DNA from: Rhizobium sp. Q54
Lineage (GTDB): Bacteria > Pseudomonadota > Alphaproteobacteria > UBA2966 > CAIVPW01
Assembly: GCA_945889645.1 (NCBI GenBank)
Contig: CAMDCA010000011.1
Coordinates: 1 to 43,298 of the forward strand
Length of the DNA stretch: 43,298 bases
Direction: 5' to 3'
Shown: in pieces, positions 32,574-42,688 of the stretch
How positions within the stretch are numbered: the first letter of the stretch is position 1
Layout of the letters: each line of letters opens with the position of its first letter
Notes under the pieces: model-generated
The model's input: the letters and a program-made list of their open reading frames with translations, nothing else
What the model was told of the DNA's origin: nothing
Database searches by the model: none
Program-made: the position numbers and the translations under genes

Positions 32574-32843
32574 ATGGCAGCCGACCGAAACCAAGTGGGA
32601 AGCTCGGAACGTACGACTTCAAACCGCGGCTTCGCCTCGATGGACGAAGAGCGGCAGCATGAGATTGCCAGCAAGGGCGGGCAGAGCGTTCCCGGCGAGA
32701 AACGCAGCTTCTCGCAGGATCGCCGCTTGGCGGCCGAGGCCGGCCGGAATTGGTGCCGGCGGAGGGAATTGAACCCCCGACCTACGGTTTACAAAACCGT
32801 TGCTCTACCGCTGAGCTACGCCGGCGACCGGGTGCAAAGATAG
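32574..32843 (+). CDS. KGG-domain (stress-induced, con-10-type) protein with altered C-terminus
   Basis: An 89-codon frame with GGAG at 9 bases before its ATG. Residues about 18-58 carry the KGG pattern (RGFASMDEERQHEIASKGGQSVPG, then RSFSQDRRLAAEAGR), usually found in small hydrophilic stress proteins as repeated KGG units. A second KGG would be expected right after AEAGR. Instead the frame runs on as the antisense of the tRNA-Thr gene, which starts about 6 bases later. The real gene may therefore be cut short, with the last 30 codons being accidental coding. Confidence 0.6.
   Translation: MAADRNQVGSSERTTSNRGFASMDEERQHEIASKGGQSVPGEKRSFSQDRRLAAEAGRNWCRRRELNPRPTVYKTVALPLSYAGDRVQR
32751..32825 (-). 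tRNA. trnT: tRNA-Thr (anticodon TGT)
   Basis: A 75-nt cloverleaf on the minus strand: acceptor GCCGGCG (32825-32819) pairs with CGCCGGC, D arm GCTC-AGCGGTA-GAGC, anticodon stem ACGGT/ACCGT with loop TTTGTAA (anticodon TGT, read by Thr codon ACA), T arm with TTCAATT loop. The 3' CCA is encoded (32753-32751). A TATCTT -10-like box lies just upstream. Confidence 0.95.
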
Positions 32844-32906: not shown

Positions 32907-33695
32907 TCACATTTCGCGCTGCGGGGCGCTGCTTCTCTCGGCAGAAGCGTAGCCGTAGGGCTTGAACACGGACACTCCGTGCAACCACCGCGCAACCGAA
33001 TCGGGCGCGCGCAGGATTGTCTCCACCGCGATCGTCATCTCGACGGTGAAGGACTGCACCCGCTCGTGCTCGAGCGCGCCGACGATACCGTGGCCGATTG
33101 CTTTGGACACTGTGCGCGGCCATCCGAACGTCACCATCGGTGCGAGGGAACGGCTGTTGCCAGAGGTCAGAACTTCTTCGCACAGCCTGACGTCGTAGGA
33201 CACGTGGGCGCGGCAGACGCGTGGACGCACGTCGTAAATGGAGCAGGCTCCGTCGCGCAGCAGCGGGCAGGGGATGCGCAGATCGTAGCGCATCCATGGT
33301 GGGATGCCATCGACCTTGGGCGCGATCGTCAGGACGGACTCCGACAACCCAGGGTCGGTGGCGACGCGCTGCGCCACCGCGATCGCTTCGATGATGGTGA
33401 CCTCGACGTTGGCGTGACAGCAGAAGGAGCAGCCCTTGGCGCAGGCGATGGACTTCCGCACCGCCGGTCCGGTCGGATCGGTGGCGAGGAACTCGTCGGT
33501 CAGGGTGCCGACCTGGGTGGCGGTGCCGGCGTGAATGGCGACGAGGGCGGCGGCGCGTCCTGCGTCATCGAGGGCGGCCTTGGCGGCCGCCATGCCGGTG
33601 CGGGTGCGGCGATAGACCTCGCCCACCAACGCTTCCAGGCGCGCCATCTGCGCGGGGGTGAATGCGTCCTGCTTGCGGCGCTTGGCTTCGCCCAT
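32907..33695 (-). CDS. YkgJ-family cysteine-cluster protein
   Basis: A 262-residue protein with the YkgJ/Fe-S or zinc cysteine pattern: C85, C89, C92, C93 (CAKGCSFCC), then C143 (PCPLL), C151 (GACSIY), C161 (RPRVCR) and C172. The family may bind iron-sulfur or zinc; the role is not known. The N-terminal helix region is basic (MGEAKRRKQ). Its start lies 36 bases behind the MscS gene on the same strand, so it may end the long operon. Confidence 0.82.
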   Translation of the reverse strand: MGEAKRRKQDAFTPAQMARLEALVGEVYRRTRTGMAAAKAALDDAGRAAALVAIHAGTATQVGTLTDEFLATDPTGPAVRKSIACAKGCSFCCHANVEVTIIEAIAVAQRVATDPGLSESVLTIAPKVDGIPPWMRYDLRIPCPLLRDGACSIYDVRPRVCRAHVSYDVRLCEEVLTSGNSRSLAPMVTFGWPRTVSKAIGHGIVGALEHERVQSFTVEMTIAVETILRAPDSVARWLHGVSVFKPYGYASAERSSAPQREM

Positions 33696-33731: not shown

Positions 33732-35951
33732 TCAGGACGTAGGTTCGGCCGCGGGGGACGGCGGAGGCGGCAGGCGAGGCGCCGGCGGCGGCCGCACAGC
33801 GAACGGTAGCTCGATGCCTTCCTGGGAGAAGCGCAGCTTCAAGCGGCGATTGAACTCGCGACGCACGTCCCACTGGCGTTGCGGCCGCGTCTTGATGCGA
33901 GCGCGGACGACGATCGCCGTGTCGGTGATCTCCTCCAGGCCCTGCACCTCGATTGTGCCGATAATGGCGCGGCTGAGAGTCGGGTCGGCTTTCATCTCTT
34001 TGCCGACGTCGAGGATCACCGCGACCACGCGCTCGTAGTCCTGGTCGTAGGCGACGCGCACGTCGATGACGGCATACGAGAAGTCCTTCGTCAGGTTCTC
34101 GATCATCGTCACGCTCGAGAACGGGATCGTGTAGACGGTGCCGTCGGTGTCGCGCATGCGCACCGTGCGGATGGTCATGGCTTCGACCACGCCGGCCTTG
34201 CCGCCGAGGCGCGCGATGTCGCCGACGTGCAGAGAGTCCTCGATGAGGATGAACAGGCCGGTGATGAAGTCCTTCACCAGAGTCTGGGCGCCGAAGCCGA
34301 TGGCGACACCGGCAACACCGGCGCCGGCCAACAGTGGGCCGATGCTGACGCCGAGCTCTGACAGGATGACGAGGCCGGCCATGCCGCTGATCAGGATCAG
34401 CAGGACGTTGCGCATGAGGGGCAGCAACGTGCGGACACGTTGGGACGGGATGTGATCCTCGTCGTCGGTGCGGGCATCCAGATAGACGTGGACGAGCGCG
34501 TTGGAAAGTTCGAGGGCGACCAGCGCGATGCCGAGGATGACCGCGATGTGGACCGCGCGTGCGAGCACGGTGCGGCCGGTCTCTCTGGTGAACCACTCCA
34601 GGATGTCGATGCCCCACACCTGCAGTACCGCCAACGCGGCGACAACCTGAACCAGCACAACGACGCCGCGCTGCGCAACCGGCAAATACAACTCGGCCCG
34701 GGTGGCGACGAAGGGATACTGGCGTCGAATCTCCTCGCTGACACCGAATGCCCTGTGCACGGCGCTGCGCACGAGGCGGACGATGAGCCAGGTGATCGTC
34801 ACGATCATCGCGGTCGCAAGCGTGTTGCGTGCGATTAGGGTGAAGCCGCCCGGGATGCCGAGCATCCAGACGGCCCATGCGGCGGCGACGTAAAGCAGCG
34901 CCAAGATGTGCCATGCGCCGGCGAGCCGCTCGCGCACTACCCGCGCTGCTGCGGGCCGGACGCGATCACCGCCGAGGTAGGCCATCCAGTGCTGTACGGC
35001 CATGCGGTTCTGCAGGATCAGCACCGCGAACAGCAGGGCCAGCAGGAGGCCGATGAGGCGTGCCAAAAAGGCGTAGGCGCCGGGCGGGACTCCAACCAGC
35101 AGCGTGGCCTGGGTCAGGAAGTAGCCGTAGACCGACAGATCGACGAACCGGCGGATCCAGACGTAAAGGTATGCAGCCGCTTCGTTGCGCATCGGCATGG
35201 GTCGCAGGGCAGGCGCCAGCGGCGCCAACAGCGTCTTGGCGATCGCGTTGCAGGCGAGGGCAATGCCGACGGCCGTCAGGAGCGTGGTGATCAGCAGAAG
35301 GCGCGCGTCTGTTGGCGGGCGCAGCACGGCGAGCATGGCGTAGCCGACTGCGACAAAGGCAGCGATCGGCGCGACCAGCAACACCAGATGCGCGACCGCG
35401 AACGGAATGCGCTTCCACCACACGTCAGACGCGCGCCGCTCGAGCATTGCAATCACCGGCCGCCGCAATCGCCGCACGACCCACCACAGGGTGAGCGCCG
35501 GTGCCATCACACCGGCAAGATAGCCGAGCAGCGAAATCCATAGGCTGCGCTGCTGCGGCAGGGACTGGTCGCCGAGCCAACGCAGGATGCCCCGCGGGTT
35601 GCCCATGTAGCCGACGATCTCCGCTATGCGGTCGCCGAGCGAGGAGAGTGCGATCGAGAACACCGCCAGCATGCCGGCACCGGTGTCCGCGCGGCTCGGC
35701 GGAGCCTCTGGAATGGGGGCGGGGGCCGGAATCGCCGCGGGCGTTGAGATGCCGGGCGCAGTGCGGCGTAGTTCCTGGATCAGCCGCGCGCGCGCGGCGT
35801 CGTCCTCCAGGACCCGAATCAGCAGGTCGACGTCGGTGGTGGCCGGTGCCGCCACCGTCGGAGCCGGCGGCGGCGCGGCCGGCTGTGCGACCGCAGCTCC
35901 AGCCGTCAGCAGCGCAAGCAGCGCGGCAAGTGCCGGCGCGGCTGTCCTCAA
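33732..35951 (-). CDS. MscS-type mechanosensitive channel, large form
   Basis: A 739-residue membrane channel that opens under membrane tension. Start is a TTG at 35951 with GGAGGA 6 bases upstream, overlapping the Kef stop (TTGA); it gives a signal peptide (LAALLALLTAGAAVAQ) followed by a Pro/Ala-rich periplasmic part and about ten membrane helices. The pore helix GVAGVAIGFGAQTLVKDFITG and the beta domain IEDSLHVGDIA are the MscS core (about residues 550-590). The C-terminal tail is Pro-rich. The frame open further upstream overlaps kef and is not used. Confidence 0.88.
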   Translation of the reverse strand: MRTAAPALAALLALLTAGAAVAQPAAPPPAPTVAAPATTDVDLLIRVLEDDAARARLIQELRRTAPGISTPAAIPAPAPIPEAPPSRADTGAGMLAVFSIALSSLGDRIAEIVGYMGNPRGILRWLGDQSLPQQRSLWISLLGYLAGVMAPALTLWWVVRRLRRPVIAMLERRASDVWWKRIPFAVAHLVLLVAPIAAFVAVGYAMLAVLRPPTDARLLLITTLLTAVGIALACNAIAKTLLAPLAPALRPMPMRNEAAAYLYVWIRRFVDLSVYGYFLTQATLLVGVPPGAYAFLARLIGLLLALLFAVLILQNRMAVQHWMAYLGGDRVRPAAARVVRERLAGAWHILALLYVAAAWAVWMLGIPGGFTLIARNTLATAMIVTITWLIVRLVRSAVHRAFGVSEEIRRQYPFVATRAELYLPVAQRGVVVLVQVVAALAVLQVWGIDILEWFTRETGRTVLARAVHIAVILGIALVALELSNALVHVYLDARTDDEDHIPSQRVRTLLPLMRNVLLILISGMAGLVILSELGVSIGPLLAGAGVAGVAIGFGAQTLVKDFITGLFILIEDSLHVGDIARLGGKAGVVEAMTIRTVRMRDTDGTVYTIPFSSVTMIENLTKDFSYAVIDVRVAYDQDYERVVAVILDVGKEMKADPTLSRAIIGTIEVQGLEEITDTAIVVRARIKTRPQRQWDVRREFNRRLKLRFSQEGIELPFAVRPPPAPRLPPPPSPAAEPTS

Positions 35952-37348
35952 CGCGGATCCTCCGTGCCGGTTGCCTGCACCGGTGGCAGTGGCAACGGGT
36001 CGTTGGCCGGGGCGGGATGCGGGGCGGGTTCTGAGGCGGCGGCGGGTGCCATCGGCTTTCTGGCGACCAGAGCCCGTACACGGCGCGACGCGGAGTGCAC
36101 GGTGCGACCGAGCATACGCAAGCCACGCCATACGGCGCGGGCTTCATTGCCGTAGAGGCTGTCCAGGCCGAAGCGGGCGCCCTCGCCGGGGCCCCACGCC
36201 ATTGCTTCAAGCCGCCGCGCGGTGAGGAGCCACAGGGGACTCATCACCAGCGACATGGCGATGACGGCGACCAGCAGGCGGTAGTCGTCGGAGCTCATCA
36301 GCCCGGCCGCGACGCCGCCAGCGGCGAGCACAAAGGAGAACTCGCCGATCTGGCCCATCACCGTGCCGGCCAGGAAGGCGCGCGGCCAGGGCTCTCCCAC
36401 CAGGCGCAGGATGGCGATGTTGGTCGCGGTCTTGCCGAGGGTCACGAGCAGGACGAGCAGCACGACGGTGCCGAGGTGGTCCCAGATGAAGCTCAGGTCG
36501 AGCAGCAATCCGACCGAGAGAAAGAACACCATCAGCAGGGCAGACTGAATCGGCCGCGTGGCGGCGACCATCTTGGGCCGCTCGGCGGTGTTGCCGACGA
36601 TCAGGCCGGCCAGGAACGCGCCGTAGGCAGGCGATAGGCCTAGTAGGCCGCTGAGTGTCGCAGCGGTGAAGCAGATCGCCAGGGCGGTGATGGCGGCGAG
36701 CTCTTCGTTCTCCTCCAGGCGGTCGAGGAATTCGATGCGGATGCGGCGGCGGCCGGACAGGGCGATGATCGCCACCGCCAGCAACGTGACCGCGCCGCCG
36801 AGTTTGGCGGCCTCGATCGGTAGGGAGACTGCCTGCTCGCCGAACATGCCGGCGACCAGCAGCATCGGCACCACGGCGAGGTCCTGCGCGATGAGCACGC
36901 CGATGGCGGTGCGGCCGACGTCGGTGCGCAGCTCGCCGATGTCTTCGAGGATCTTGATGGCCACGGCCGTCGACGACAGCGACAGCGCGAATCCGATCAG
37001 CAGGGCGAGCCCGGGCGACCAGCCCAGAAGGCGGCCAGCGCCCCAGGCGAACACGAGGGCGACACCGATCTGCAGCGCGGCGGCGGCCAGCGAGATGTGC
37101 CACACGCGCTTGAAGCTGCGCAGGCTAAGCTCGAGGCCGATGAGGAACAGCAGCATCAGCACGCCGAGTTCGGCGAGGCTCTCGATGGTGGCGCGGTCAG
37201 TGGCGAGGCCGAGGGCCGACGGCCCCAACAGGACGCCGGCCAAAACGTAGCCGACCAGGATCGGCTGGCGCAGGCGGTGCAGTATCAGGCCGCCGAGCGC
37301 GGCGGCACCGGCGATCAGGCCGACTTGGGTGAGATCGAAGCCCGCCAC
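35948..37348 (-). CDS. Kef-type cation/proton antiporter (CPA2 family)
   Basis: A 466-residue membrane antiporter with about 12 helices (residues 5-385), including GLELSLRSFKR and the LSSTAVAIKIL and GQIGEFSFVLA motifs of KefB/KefC. It lacks the C-terminal RCK nucleotide-binding domain of KefB/C and instead ends in a Pro/Ala-rich cytoplasmic tail. A GTG start lies one base after the stop of the small upstream ORF, and its stop overlaps the mscS start, so all three are coupled. The ion (K+ or Na+) is not clear. Confidence 0.9.
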   Translation of the reverse strand: MAGFDLTQVGLIAGAAALGGLILHRLRQPILVGYVLAGVLLGPSALGLATDRATIESLAELGVLMLLFLIGLELSLRSFKRVWHISLAAAALQIGVALVFAWGAGRLLGWSPGLALLIGFALSLSSTAVAIKILEDIGELRTDVGRTAIGVLIAQDLAVVPMLLVAGMFGEQAVSLPIEAAKLGGAVTLLAVAIIALSGRRRIRIEFLDRLEENEELAAITALAICFTAATLSGLLGLSPAYGAFLAGLIVGNTAERPKMVAATRPIQSALLMVFFLSVGLLLDLSFIWDHLGTVVLLVLLVTLGKTATNIAILRLVGEPWPRAFLAGTVMGQIGEFSFVLAAGGVAAGLMSSDDYRLLVAVIAMSLVMSPLWLLTARRLEAMAWGPGEGARFGLDSLYGNEARAVWRGLRMLGRTVHSASRRVRALVARKPMAPAAASEPAPHPAPANDPLPLPPVQATGTEDPR

Positions 37349-37349
37349 G

Positions 37350-37541
37350 CTACGAGGCCTCGCCGACGGCTGGCGGGAGCATGGCGGTAGTGTCGGCGTC
37401 GAGGCGGGGAGTGCCCATCAGGTGAAGCCCGTAAAAGGTGAACGCGGGACCGCACAGGAACAATGTGCACGTTAAGAAGGCGTTGTCGTGGCCACGCTTG
37501 GGGCGGGTCGCGGCCGCGTGCCGCACCTGCCGATCCGGCAT
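37350..37541 (-). CDS. Small basic membrane protein linking Anbu and Kef genes
   Basis: A 63-codon frame. Its ATG overlaps the Anbu stop by one base (TGATG) and its stop is one base before the Kef GTG start, which strongly suggests translation. The N-terminal 20 residues are basic (MPDRQVRHAAATRPKRG), followed by one hydrophobic segment (AFLTCTLFLCGPAFTFYGLHLMG) and a polar tail. No family recognised. Without the junction evidence it would be dismissed as noise. Confidence 0.55.
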   Translation of the reverse strand: MPDRQVRHAAATRPKRGHDNAFLTCTLFLCGPAFTFYGLHLMGTPRLDADTTAMLPPAVGEAS

Positions 37542-38278
37542 CAGCCGAAGTTCCACGGCGGATTGCGGATGTCGGAGAACACGGCGCGCAGGCCGCTGCC
37601 CCAGGCCGTCCGGACTTCGGCGAAGTACGGGTCGGTGTCCGCGAGGGTGGCGTGGGTCGCCACTTTATGCGTGTCGCGCCGGTAGATCAGCAGGTCGATG
37701 GGCGGTCCGACCGAGATGTTGGACCGCAGAGTCGAATCCATCGAGATCAGCGAGCACTTGGCCGCGTCGGCAAGGTTGGTGCCGAAATGGATGACGCGGT
37801 CGAGGATCGGCTTGCCGTACTTGTTCTCGCCGATCTGGAAGAACGGCGTGTCGGGCATCGACTCGATGAAGTTGCCGGCCTTGTAGATCAGGAACAGGCG
37901 CAATGGTCCGCCGTTGACCTGGCCGCCGAGGATCATCGACACCTCGAAGTCCACGCCGCTGGAGCGCATGGCGGCACCATCGACGCGGTCGACTTCGCGA
38001 ATTGCCCCACCGACCAGGCGGGCGGCGTCGGTCATCGATGCGACGTCGCGCATCGTATTGGTCTTGCCGTTGACGGCGAGACCTTCGTTGAGGTGATTGA
38101 GGATCGACTGGCTGATGGCGAGGTTGCCGGCCGTCATCAGCACGATGACGCGCTCGCCTGGCGTTTCCCAGATCGTCATCTTGCGGAACTTGGCGATTTG
38201 ATCGACGCCGGCGTTGGTGAGGGAGTCCGACACCATCACCAAGCCTTGCTGCAGCAGAATACCCATGCAGTAGGTCAT
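37541..38278 (-). CDS. anbu: Anbu, ancestral proteasome-like peptidase subunit
   Basis: A 245-residue Ntn-hydrolase related to HslV and the proteasome beta subunit. The start MTYCMGI puts Thr2 at the N-terminus after Met removal, the family's nucleophile. VMVSDSLTNAGVDQIAKFRKM follows, then the typical GGQVNGGPLRLFLIY strand. It is the last-but-one member of the conserved set ATP-grasp, alpha-E, transglutaminase, Anbu, thought to make and process a small peptide or peptide tag. It starts 45 bases after the transglutaminase, with GGGGGGA upstream. Confidence 0.93.
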   Translation of the reverse strand: MTYCMGILLQQGLVMVSDSLTNAGVDQIAKFRKMTIWETPGERVIVLMTAGNLAISQSILNHLNEGLAVNGKTNTMRDVASMTDAARLVGGAIREVDRVDGAAMRSSGVDFEVSMILGGQVNGGPLRLFLIYKAGNFIESMPDTPFFQIGENKYGKPILDRVIHFGTNLADAAKCSLISMDSTLRSNISVGPPIDLLIYRRDTHKVATHATLADTDPYFAEVRTAWGSGLRAVFSDIRNPPWNFG

Positions 38279-38323
38279 GGCGGCGTCCCCCCGCGGTCCC
38301 GCGACTCGTCCGCTCGAACCGTA

Positions 38324-39133
38324 TTACTGCTGACTCTGCGCCGCTGCAACGCGTACGCGCACGCTCAGGCTCTCGGTGCCGCCGCCGCGGCGCATGCCGC
38401 GCACGGGCGCCGCGTCGAGGTAATCGAGCCCGGCGGCCAGGCGCACGTAGGCGTCGTCGACCCGTTTCTGGTTGGTGGTGTCGAACGCCATCCAGCCCTG
38501 ATCGCCGACGTGGGCCTCGACCCAGGCGTGGTTGGCCTCGTACTCCGCGCCGGCGGCGTCGGCCCAGTAATAGCCACTGACGTAGCGCGCCGGGATGCGC
38601 AGGGAACGGCAGCAGGCGATGAGCAGGTGTGAGAAGTCCTGGCATACACCCGCGCCTAGGGAGAGCACCTCGGGCGCCGTGGTCTGCGACGTCGTGGCGC
38701 CGTGGCGGTACTCGACCTTGGCTCCGACGCTCTCGACGAGGCGTTCCACGGCGGCGAGACCCTTGGCGCGTTTTGTCGCGGCCTGGGCGAATTCGGCGAT
38801 GTCGGCGTTGATCGATGTCAGCGCAGTGGGACGCAGGAACACGGCCGGCGGCAAGGTCTCTCCGTCGGTCGGCACTATGCCGCCGCCATCGGTCGTCCGC
38901 ACGCGGCCGCGCACGGCCAGCGTGTACGTGTGGTGCGACCGCGTGACGGCGAGCACATCGACATCGTTGCCGAAGCCGTCGCGGAACTGGGTCATCGCTT
39001 CCGGCCCAGCCACCGACCACTGCCAAACACTCTGCAGCGAAGACTGGTTCGGACGCAGACGCAGGTACTGGACTGAATAGCGCAGCGGCGTCGCGTACGT
39101 GTAGGTCGTGTCATGCTCGACGAGGAGTTCCAC
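38324..39133 (-). CDS. Transglutaminase-like cysteine protease of the Anbu operon
   Basis: A 269-residue protein with an N-terminal beta domain and a papain-like transglutaminase core: Cys164 (GAGVCQDFSHL), His202 (NHAWVEAHV) and Asp218 (AFDTTN). The GTG at 39133 lies 2 bases after the alpha-E stop; a longer upstream frame overlaps alpha-E and is rejected. In this operon type it likely cuts or joins amide bonds in a peptide made by the ATP-grasp enzyme. Confidence 0.92.
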   Translation of the reverse strand: MELLVEHDTTYTYATPLRYSVQYLRLRPNQSSLQSVWQWSVAGPEAMTQFRDGFGNDVDVLAVTRSHHTYTLAVRGRVRTTDGGGIVPTDGETLPPAVFLRPTALTSINADIAEFAQAATKRAKGLAAVERLVESVGAKVEYRHGATTSQTTAPEVLSLGAGVCQDFSHLLIACCRSLRIPARYVSGYYWADAAGAEYEANHAWVEAHVGDQGWMAFDTTNQKRVDDAYVRLAAGLDYLDAAPVRGMRRGGGTESLSVRVRVAAAQSQQ

Positions 39134-39135
39134 GG

Positions 39136-40080
39136 CTAGGCGGCCAGCTGGAAGTCGTCGGAGATCTGCTTGCCGAGCACGCCGGTGCGGCGAATGAAGT
39201 CGGTCAGGAACTCGTGCAGGCCGACCTCGAAGATCTCTTCCATGCGGCCGTAGCGCAGCTTGGCGTAGATCTCGCCGGCGAGACGGAAGCATTCGTAGTC
39301 GGTGTGGTAGCGCTGGCGCAACTCGCCGAACAGCACGTCGATCTCGCGGAACGAGGCGCGCAAGGAGCGCGGCATGTCTTCGCGCAGGATCAACAACTCG
39401 GCGACGCGCCGGGGCAGGATCGCCTCACGGAACAGCCGCTTGTACGCGCGCAACGCCGAGACCGAACGCAGCAGGGCGGCCCATTGGTAGAAGTCCACCA
39501 CTCCGCCGACGGCGTCCGGGCGCGGCAGAAGCATGTGGTACTTCACGTCGAGCAGCCGTGCGGTGTTGTCGGCGCGCTCTAGGAACGTGCCGAGGCGCAG
39601 GAAGTTGTAGCAGTCGTCGCGCAGCATGGTGCCGAAGGTGACGCCACGGAACAGGTGGCTGCGCTCCTTCACCCAATCGAAGAACGGCGACACGCCGCTG
39701 GCAATGACGTCTTCGTAGGTCTTGCTCTGCATGGTGAGCCAGGTTTCGTTCAAGCACTCCCACATCTCGCTGGTGATCGAGCCGCGCAGGGCGCGGCCGT
39801 TCTCCCGCGCGCGACGCAGGCAGGCGGCGATGCCGGAATGGTTGTCCGCGTCGAACGCCATGTATGTAATGACGGCGCGCGCATCGGTGCGCCCGTGCCT
39901 GGCGGCGAACCCTTGCGCGGTACCACTGATGGCCAGCACTGAACCCCAGTCGGCGGCGGCAACATCCTTGCGGCTGATGAGCGCCGAGCGATGCGCGACG
40001 TCGAGCATGCGCGCGGTGTTCTCGGCGCGCTCAAAGTAGCGGCCGAGCCAGTAAAGGTTGTCGGCGGTGCGGCTCAGCAC
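39136..40080 (-). CDS. Alpha-E domain protein (COG2307) of the Anbu operon
   Basis: A 314-residue all-alpha protein with the characteristic N-terminus LSRTADNLYWLGRYFERAEN and an internal LERADNTARLLDVKYH repeat of that motif (about 178-198). The family always goes with the circularly permuted ATP-grasp and is a probable partner or scaffold. The GTG at 40080 comes one base after the DUF1653 stop, with AAGGACGG upstream. Confidence 0.92.
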   Translation of the reverse strand: MLSRTADNLYWLGRYFERAENTARMLDVAHRSALISRKDVAAADWGSVLAISGTAQGFAARHGRTDARAVITYMAFDADNHSGIAACLRRARENGRALRGSITSEMWECLNETWLTMQSKTYEDVIASGVSPFFDWVKERSHLFRGVTFGTMLRDDCYNFLRLGTFLERADNTARLLDVKYHMLLPRPDAVGGVVDFYQWAALLRSVSALRAYKRLFREAILPRRVAELLILREDMPRSLRASFREIDVLFGELRQRYHTDYECFRLAGEIYAKLRYGRMEEIFEVGLHEFLTDFIRRTGVLGKQISDDFQLAA

Positions 40081-40081
40081 G

Positions 40082-40303
40082 TCAGGTGCCGTCCTTGGCG
40101 ATGAGGGCGTAGCGCGGCACGGTCTTGCCATCCACCGTCACGTTCTCTTCGAACATGGCGCGCGGACGCACAAACCAGCCCAGGCTCACGCCATAGGCTG
40201 GGCGATAGACAACGAATTCCTCTTCCGTCTCCGAATGGCGGGCGACGCCGAGCACGGCGTATTCCTTGCCCTTGTAGTGACGGTAGCGACCGGCGGGGAT
40301 CAT
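40082..40303 (-). CDS. DUF1653 small protein inserted in the Anbu operon
   Basis: A 73-residue protein with the DUF1653 pattern GRYRHYKGKEYAVLGVARHSET, then VVYRPAYG, WFVRPRAMF and the C-terminal VPRYALI. Its ATG overlaps the ATP-grasp stop by four bases (ATGA) and its stop precedes the alpha-E GTG by one base. The family is a small beta barrel of unknown function, normally found alone. Here it is physically locked between two peptide-tag enzymes. The larger frame spanning this stretch is not a gene. Confidence 0.88.
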   Translation of the reverse strand: MIPAGRYRHYKGKEYAVLGVARHSETEEEFVVYRPAYGVSLGWFVRPRAMFEENVTVDGKTVPRYALIAKDGT

Positions 40304-41724
40304 GCCTCGAGCACCCAGGTGTCCTTGGTGCCGCCGCCTTGGGAAGAGTTCACGACGAGGGAGCCTTTCTCGAGGGCGACGCGGGTCAGGCCGCCGGGCA
40401 CGATGCGCACCTGGTCGGACGTAAGCACGAATGGCCGCAAGTCGACGTGGCGCGGGGCAATGCCCCGCTTCACGAAGGTTGGGCAGGTGGATAGTGCCAG
40501 AGTCGGCTGGGCGATGTAGCCCTCGGGGGCGGCGGTCAGGCGCTCCCGGAACTCGGCGATCTGCGCCTTGGTAGCGGCCGGGCCGATCAGCATGCCGTAG
40601 CCGCCGGAGCCGTGGACTTCCTTGACCACCAACTCGGGCAGATTGGCCAGCACGTACTTCAGGTCGTCGGGTCGCCGGCACAGGTAGGTCGGCACGTTCT
40701 TGAGGATAGGCTCCTCGCGCAGGTAGAAGCGCACGATGTCGGGGACGAAGGCATACACCGCCTTGTCGTCGGCGACGCCGGTGCCGATGGCGTTCGCCAG
40801 CGCGACGCGGCCGGAGCGGTACACCGACAGAAGTCCGGGCACGCCGAGCAGCGAGTCCTGGCGTAGTGCGAGCGGATCGAGGAAGTCGTCATCGACGCGG
40901 CGGTAGATGACGTCAACGCGCTGCGGGCCTGCGGGCGTGCGCATGTAGACGAAGCCGTTGGCGACGAACAGGTCCTGGCCTTCGACCAACTCGATGCCCA
41001 TCTGTTCGGCGAGGAACGCGTGCTCGAAGTACGCCGAGTTCTCAGGCCCCGGCGTCAGCACGACGACGGTGGGATCGGCGTTGGGCGATACGGCGCGCAG
41101 AGTGTTGAGCAGCTCTTCCGGATAGTGATCGACCGGCGCGATGTGGTTCTGCGCAAACAGCTCGGGGAACAGGCGCATCATGATGACGCGGTTCTCCAGC
41201 ATGTACGACACGCCGGACGGGGTGCGCAGGTTGTCTTCGAGTACGTAGAAGTCGTTCTCGCCGGTGCGCACGATGTCGATGCCGGCGACGTGCACATAGG
41301 TGCCGCGCGGCGGGATGACGCCGGCAGCTTCGGGCCGGAACGCCTTGTTTGCGAGCACCAGGTCGGCGGGGATGATGCCGGCGCGGATGATTTCGCGGTC
41401 CTGGTAGACATCGGCGAGGAACAGGTTCATCGCGCGTACGCGTTGTTCCAGGCCGACGCGCAAGTGGGCCCACTCAGCCGCTGCGAGAACGCGCGGAATG
41501 ATGTCGAACGGGATCAGCCGTTCGGTGGTTCCGCTGCCATAGACGGTAAAGGTGATGCCGAGCCGGCGGAACAGAAGGTCCGCCTCGCTGCGAAAGCGGT
41601 CGAACTCCTCTTTGGGAGTCGCCGATAGCCACGTGTCGAGATTCTGATACGCGGGCCGCAGCGCCCCACTGGGATCGCGCATCTCATCGAACGCGGCGAG
41701 TTTGTTTCCCCGCACGCTGCTCAC
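40300..41724 (-). CDS. Circularly permuted type 2 ATP-grasp protein (COG2308)
   Basis: About 474 residues. The family forms amide bonds with ATP, in peptide or peptide-tag synthesis. Features: [20 protein letters not shown] near the start, [41 protein letters not shown] (split over two strands), [17 protein letters not shown] (the ATP-binding glycine loop), and the C-terminal [16 protein letters not shown]. Start uncertain: GTG at 41724 (used), GTG 41715 or ATG 41682. It is the first gene of the tightly packed run. Confidence 0.92.
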
Positions 41725-41782: not shown

Positions 41783-42688
41783 TTATTTCGCCGGCCGTGC
41801 CAGCTCGTAGAGAGCGACGGACGCGGCGACTGAGACGTTGAGGCTGCCGGTGGCGCCGGTGACCGCATTGGTCGCAAGCTTCGCGCGGAAGTCGCATTGC
41901 TCGGCGGTCAGGCGGCGCATGCCGGTTCCTTCGGCACCGAGGACGAGTGCAACGGCACCAGTATGGTTCTCGGCGCGCAGGACTTCTGTCGCGCCGGAGT
42001 CGAGACCGACGCGCCAATAGCCGAGTTCGGCCAAGGTACCGAGGGCGCGGGCCAGGTTGGAGACGCGGACAAACGGCACTCGTTCCAGGGCGCCGGAGGC
42101 TGCCTTGGCCAGGACTCCGCTTTCGGGCGGAGCGTGCGCTTCGGTGCAGACCACCGCCTGGACGCCAAAGGCCGCGGCCGAGCGGAGGATAGCGCCGACG
42201 TTGCGCGGATCGGTGACCTGGTCGAGCACCAAGACCACGCTGCGGACGCCCTTCGCGGGTTCGCAAACCTCCGAGAGATCAAGCACTTCCAATGGCTTGA
42301 CCAGAACGGCGAGGCCCTGGTGTACAGAGCCGGCCGGCAACAGGGCAGCAAGGGCGGCAGGGGTGACATTTTCCGCTACCGGGCGGTTGGCCGAGCCTTT
42401 CAGGCGGGATTCGGCCTCGCTGGTGACCAGAAGGCGCGAGATGTAGCGTCGCGGGTTGTCGAGCGCGGCCTGGACCGCATGCGCGCCCCACAGCCAGATC
42501 GACGTGCTGCGCCCGGACGAGCGGCTATTGCCGCGCCGGCCGCCGCGCGAGCTGCTTTCCTCGGATTGCCGAGGGTGGGGCTCGGAATGCCGGGGGCGGG
42601 CGCCTTCGGCGCGCCGCCCTTCGGTGGGTCGGCCGGCCGGGCGGCGGGGGGACGGTTGGTCGCGTGCGTTGCGCTTGCGAGTCTGCAT
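41783..42688 (-). CDS. rlmB: 23S rRNA (guanosine-2'-O-)-methyltransferase RlmB
   Basis: SpoU-type 2'-O-methyltransferase acting on 23S rRNA G2251. The 301 residues include the N-terminal substrate domain (WLWGAHAVQAAL), the knotted SAM-binding motifs DQVTDPRNVGAILRSA, LVLGAEGTGM and GSLNVSVAASVALYE. A 60-residue basic, Ser/Arg-rich N-terminal extension, probably disordered, precedes the domain. The start at 42688 is ATG. It lies 58 bases before the ATP-grasp gene and could be transcribed with it. The family also methylates tRNA; RlmB is the best fit. Confidence 0.9.
   Translation of the reverse strand: MQTRKRNARDQPSPRRPAGRPTEGRRAEGARPRHSEPHPRQSEESSSRGGRRGNSRSSGRSTSIWLWGAHAVQAALDNPRRYISRLLVTSEAESRLKGSANRPVAENVTPAALAALLPAGSVHQGLAVLVKPLEVLDLSEVCEPAKGVRSVVLVLDQVTDPRNVGAILRSAAAFGVQAVVCTEAHAPPESGVLAKAASGALERVPFVRVSNLARALGTLAELGYWRVGLDSGATEVLRAENHTGAVALVLGAEGTGMRRLTAEQCDFRAKLATNAVTGATGSLNVSVAASVALYELARPAK

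Follow-up and report, generated by a model that had tools for sequence, protein, structure and literature searches.

An Anbu operon and a Kef-MscS ion-homeostasis block probably stand as two independent modules at one alphaproteobacterial locus

Genes at the locus

The window, that is, the whole stretch of 43,298 nucleotides that was analysed, comes from a genome of 2.33 Mb in 101 contigs. The genes that the initial annotation had named here, those for an ATP-grasp protein, a DUF1653 protein, an alpha-E protein, a transglutaminase-like protein (TGase), Anbu, a Kef antiporter and an MscS channel, were all found by Pfam and PDB matches where it had placed them, on the minus strand. The run of genes exceeds the interval 33732-41724 that had been assigned to it. 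It begins with rlmB (41783..42688, minus strand), coding for 23S rRNA 2'-O-methyltransferase (TIGR00186, E=5e-50, over the cut-off), which lies 58 nt upstream of the ATP-grasp gene and forms a conserved border on the left side of the locus, being found next to Kef or near MscS in congeners and in sister genera. The next genes, all on the minus strand, code for a circularly permuted ATP-grasp protein of 474 aa with a GTG start (40300..41724; PF14403, E=4.5e-169), a DUF1653 protein of 73 aa (40082..40303; PF07866, E=9.8e-26), an alpha-E protein of 314 aa (39136..40080; PF04168, E=1.2e-98) and a TGase of 269 aa (38324..39133; PF01841, E=1.6e-21 and PF08379, E=1.3e-16). Thus, ATP-grasp, alpha-E and TGase stand upstream of Anbu in the conserved order. 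Anbu itself, a proteasome-beta-like Ntn-hydrolase of 245 aa (37541..38278, minus strand), had no Pfam match and was identified via the solved Anbu structures (phmmer against PDB: 5loy, E=2.6e-87; 5nyj, E=1.5e-72).

On the same strand there follow a KefC-like CPA2 antiporter of 466 aa with a GTG start, here called Kef (35948..37348; PF00999, E=6.5e-61; PDB KefC 8bxg, E=8.9e-34), and a YbiO-type large MscS channel of 739 aa with a TTG start (33732..35951), which has four MscS Pfam domains and matches NF008542 (PRK11465) with E=2e-85. The channel carries the MscS pore and beta domains plus a YbiO-like N-terminal part, full length, and it matches PDB 9go3/7a46, which we take to be YbiO, with E=2e-63 over residues 5-738. 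The run extends beyond 33732 with a gene for a CxxCxxCC (YkgJ-like) protein of 262 aa (32907..33695, minus strand; PF03692, E=1.9e-06) that starts 36 nt downstream of MscS and keeps its place after MscS in each of the five genomes of the genus. The right border of the conserved block is a tRNA-Thr(TGT) gene (32751..32825, minus strand). A search for riboswitches and other RNA elements found only tRNAs.

DUF1653 was considered as a regular member of the Anbu operon and rejected, being inside the operon only in the window genome, where it is present in a single copy. In five relatives (G001-G004 and G007) DUF1653 is elsewhere in the genome, as if it had moved.

Spacing and the stretch between Anbu and Kef

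Most of the spacings that had been reported are correct. ATP-grasp and DUF1653 share ATGA, DUF1653 is 1 nt from alpha-E and alpha-E 2 nt from TGase, the gap from TGase to Anbu is 45 nt, and Kef and MscS share TTGA; with the TTG start at the Kef stop, MscS has a plausible signal peptide (MRTAAPALAALLALLTAGAAVAQ). The gene of 63 codons that was said to bridge Anbu and Kef did not hold up. This ORF (37350-37541) had no match in a search of Pfam and NCBIfam, and its codon score per codon is 0.08, where Anbu scores 0.33, DUF1653 0.34 and Kef 0.36. In its frame the changes between the window and congeners fall about equally on codon positions 1/2/3 (5/7/4, 13/11/5 and 12/10/8), whereas in the adjoining Kef gene they are mostly at position 3 (8/0/28, 13/4/41 and 12/4/32). 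On this codon pattern and the absent family matches the ORF was rejected as a gene. Since it has no codon signature, Anbu and Kef are separated by an intergenic stretch of 192 nt (37349..37540, minus strand; blastn, alignment and codon pattern), and it is this gap, not the one between TGase and Anbu as had been stated, that is the longest in the run. The corresponding gap is about 189 nt in the congener G004 and about 127 nt in G003. The continuous coupling that had been described thus breaks at one point, between Anbu and Kef. Short overlaps are in any case ordinary in the window because 7 of its 24 other co-directional gene pairs are no more than 10 nt apart by a simple gene call.

By blastn and alignment, the Kef-proximal DNA of the window has homologous DNA, reaching 37433, in G001 and G002, two congeners without Anbu. 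Because this Kef-side stretch is kept where there is no Anbu, it is better read as the 5' region of Kef, and it is more likely that the Kef-proximal part of 37349..37540 belongs there. Within it (37349-37433 in the window), all five genomes of the genus share a stop codon exactly 1 base before the Kef start, in the frame of the rejected ORF; there is no conservation at the codon level. Given this kept stop codon, a leader ORF before Kef, either fast-evolving or sequence-independent, is possible.

The locus in the genus and family

Gene content, gene order, presence or absence and decay were read directly from the genomes of relatives. Anbu is present in three of the five genomes of the genus, namely, the window genome, G003 and G004, and in G003 and G004 it is followed by Kef, MscS and the YkgJ-like gene. 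The Anbu module stands between rlmB and Kef in the window and in G004 and precedes Kef in G003; Anbu adjoins Kef in all three of these genomes, even in G003 where the operon is split. The split in G003 (L125:3561-6329) is by a 2.7-kb AMP-binding/carrier/acyltransferase gene on the opposite strand that separates ATP-grasp from alpha-E.

The other two congeners do not have Anbu. G001 has rlmB, a broken ATP-grasp gene and an intact Kef-MscS-YkgJ set. Its ATP-grasp gene (L122:8109-9474) runs through three frames and is cut at residue 453, alpha-E, TGase and Anbu are gone, and there is no Anbu anywhere in the genome; the operon is apparently decaying. The frame breaks in G001 may include assembly errors, but such errors do not explain the missing genes. 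G002 has rlmB, an ORF of about 190 aa with a weak ParD-like match, and Kef-MscS-YkgJ, and there is neither Anbu nor ATP-grasp in its genome. Two genomes from other genera of the same family also have no Anbu: in G007, rlmB is followed after 115 nt by Kef, a second antiporter with TrkA_N, and MscS, and in G005, by one ORF and MscS, with no Kef ortholog. The Anbu module may have been placed between rlmB and Kef by an insertion in the genus, or it may be older and have been lost in G007 and G005. Elsewhere in the same order, runs of ATP-grasp, alpha-E and TGase without Anbu are seen in G010 (L261:5848-9001) and G013 (L264:4962-8207).

Kef and MscS beside Anbu outside the genus

Anbu neighbourhoods in a sample of 38 named genome contigs together with relatives, class and phylum samples were searched with Kef and MscS profiles. 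This sample gave 113 Anbu loci, and without two repeats and two congeners 109 were left outside the genus; these are not all independent and complete cases because about two dozen are from Brucellaceae and contig ends truncate some of them. MscS adjoins Anbu in none of the 109, and Kef does so in one (L148, in G158). Three more matches are distant or divergent: an MscS 4.7 kb upstream of Anbu in L157, a Kef at 4.3 kb in L189, and a Kef on the other strand in L197. From this survey, and from the persistence of both genes without Anbu in the genus, neither Kef nor MscS is a regular member of the Anbu operon. Co-occurrence of Kef and Anbu is not above chance either. Among 289 genomes, 93 have Anbu, 73 have a close Kef homolog and 21 have both, where 23.5 would be expected (Fisher p=0.56). 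A close Kef is found without Anbu in 52 of the 73, and in 19 of the 21 with both the two are unlinked.

The one exception, G158, is from another family of the same class and has a sigma-70 gene, ATP-grasp, alpha-E, TGase, Kef and Anbu in that order. Its Kef, of the same subfamily as that of the window, is between TGase and Anbu, and Kef and Anbu overlap by the 4 nt ATGA (L148:6590-8739, G158:C2). The G158 proteins are 58% (Kef) and 61% (Anbu) identical to those of the window. A further copy of Anbu in G158 (L149) has no Kef beside it. In quick gene trees with SH-aLRT supports and without bootstraps, the window Anbu groups with both G158 copies and one other (96), the window Kef with the G158 Kef (87) and the window ATP-grasp with that of G158 (83); for alpha-E, the order among G158, G010 and the genus is not resolved (49 inside, 85 for the five together). 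In nine other genomes of the family of G158 this Kef is absent at E<=1e-75.

One unit or two modules

Any operon partner that could be relied on would help to show what Anbu does. Anbu is part of a four-gene operon for which peptide tagging and nitrogen-related turnover have been hypothesized; peptidase activity was not detected, and the proteins of the operon form no stable complex (PMC6376114, PMC5666114). The initial annotation had proposed that Kef and MscS are joined to Anbu in one unit with a role in envelope or osmotic stress. Our results do not support this. The clue that Kef and MscS offer is mostly positional since close relatives in the same genus keep the ion genes after the loss of Anbu, and the pair is not kept with Anbu in related genomes. 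We propose instead that two independent modules probably lie here side by side on one strand: a standard Anbu operon and a resident Kef-MscS block for ion homeostasis. The Kef-MscS block would belong to the rlmB-to-tRNA-Thr neighbourhood of the family, with the Anbu module being lost or decaying in G001 and G002 while Kef and MscS stay intact. In the congeners that have no Anbu, Kef must be expressed without it. MscS is a neighbour of the Anbu operon only, and Kef is probably a neighbour too; G158 keeps a weak link between Kef and Anbu open, but not one between MscS and Anbu.

What we infer from these observations is in which direction genes were gained and lost, how they are transcribed and what they do. 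Most likely, the ATP-grasp and transglutaminase-like enzymes would build an amide- or peptide-linked product that Anbu would trim, possibly for nitrogen economy. Kef would exchange a cation for protons and MscS would open under membrane tension and release it, as their families suggest. Some transcription may read through Anbu into Kef. Besides G158, two points weigh against the modules being separate: a consensus scan, which is a weak test for this organism, found neither a promoter nor a terminator between Anbu and Kef, and Anbu is next to Kef in every genome of the genus that has it.

Control by NtrC and sigma-54 was considered. DUF407 and DUF403 are the older Pfam names for the ATP-grasp and alpha-E families found here. 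A DUF407/DUF403/transglutaminase cluster is NtrC-dependent in Burkholderia (PMC5491218), and nitrogen-regulated relatives have been described in Pseudomonas putida (cited in PMC5666114). No sigma-54 promoter with two or fewer mismatches was found upstream of ATP-grasp, sigma-54-like matches in the window are not above chance, and this candidate was dropped.

The linkage of Kef and Anbu in two lineages could go back to one past event in which the Anbu genes and Kef moved between the order of the window and the lineage of G158 without depending on each other in function. This is about history and not function and is compatible with there being two modules. We regard it as possible and tentative. 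It fits with the absence of this Kef from the nine other genomes of the family of G158, with the place of the G158 Kef beside the family of the window and members of its order (G011 and G014; SH-aLRT 82-87) and with the grouping of the G158 ATP-grasp and alpha-E with those of the window and of G010, which is from that order. These supports of 82-87 are, however, moderate, and in G158 the linked Anbu and the second copy are sisters, so that Anbu may predate the event there. Co-transfer or a once-linked ancestor explains G158 as well as a functional partnership does.

Such a partnership would mean that in one sub-lineage of Anbu operons Kef truly serves as an accessory gene, setting the pH or cation level for the Anbu system, with MscS a mere neighbour. 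In G158, ATP-grasp, alpha-E, TGase, Kef and Anbu are in a single run with the overlap described above, and the genes of the window are among the closest relatives of its Anbu, ATP-grasp and Kef; linkage in 2 of 21 genomes is unlikely by random placement (p about 4e-4 with about 5 slots in 3500 genes, a rough figure for what may be one event). Nevertheless, G001, G002 and G007 keep Kef although they have no Anbu, Anbu is absent from most genomes with a close Kef, nearly all that have both keep them apart, and the order differs, with Kef before Anbu in G158 and after it in the window. We therefore consider this unlikely. It is equally doubtful that an alphaproteobacterial Anbu sub-lineage took on a CPA2 antiporter without RCK domain to work with it, inside the operon in G158 or after it in the genus of the window; if it did, the antiporter would tie the function of Anbu to cation or pH homeostasis. 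The Kef inside the Anbu operon of G158 is the observation worth following. That Anbu, Kef and MscS are transcribed and act as one unit in envelope or osmotic stress is very improbable, because, against the common strand, the short spacings on both sides and the adjacency in three genomes of the genus, MscS is never adjacent to Anbu in the 109 loci, MscS and Kef remain after Anbu is lost, the bridging ORF finds no support and G005 keeps MscS near rlmB without Kef and without Anbu.

Comparison with known systems

Kef resembles KefC and other CPA2 proteins (MagA-like branch) in having the Na_H_Exchanger fold (residues 16-373), with the CPA2 membrane domain present, and the KefC structure 8bxg matches it over residues 6-384. 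It scores 410 bits against NF045626 (MagA), for which the cut-off is 700, and is also below the equivalog cut-offs for KefC and KefB. The glutathione-gated K+ efflux systems KefB and KefC have a C-terminal RCK (TrkA_N) domain, whereas none was detected in Kef, for which PF00999 is the sole Pfam match; thus, we do not expect it to be gated by glutathione in the way that KefC is. MscS is similar to YbiO, matching PRK11465 nearly over its full length (residues 5-718) and below the equivalog cut-off (288 vs 596 bits).

The Anbu particle is an open split ring. The window Anbu was matched by sequence to the solved Anbu structures (5loy, 5lox and 5nyj), and it has Thr1, Asp17 and Lys32, as in the Anbu catalytic set Thr1/Asp17/Lys32(33) (PMC6376114). 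The texts of PMC5666114 and PMC6376114 do not mention an antiporter near Anbu. The initial annotation was right that Anbu, ATP-grasp, alpha-E and transglutaminase are a known set: the four families, their order and their strand are the same in the window as in the Anbu operon described by Valas and Bourne (2008) and Iyer et al. (2009), both cited in PMC5666114 and PMC6376114. The window differs from this standard operon in that DUF1653 is between ATP-grasp and alpha-E and the Kef-MscS block comes after Anbu.
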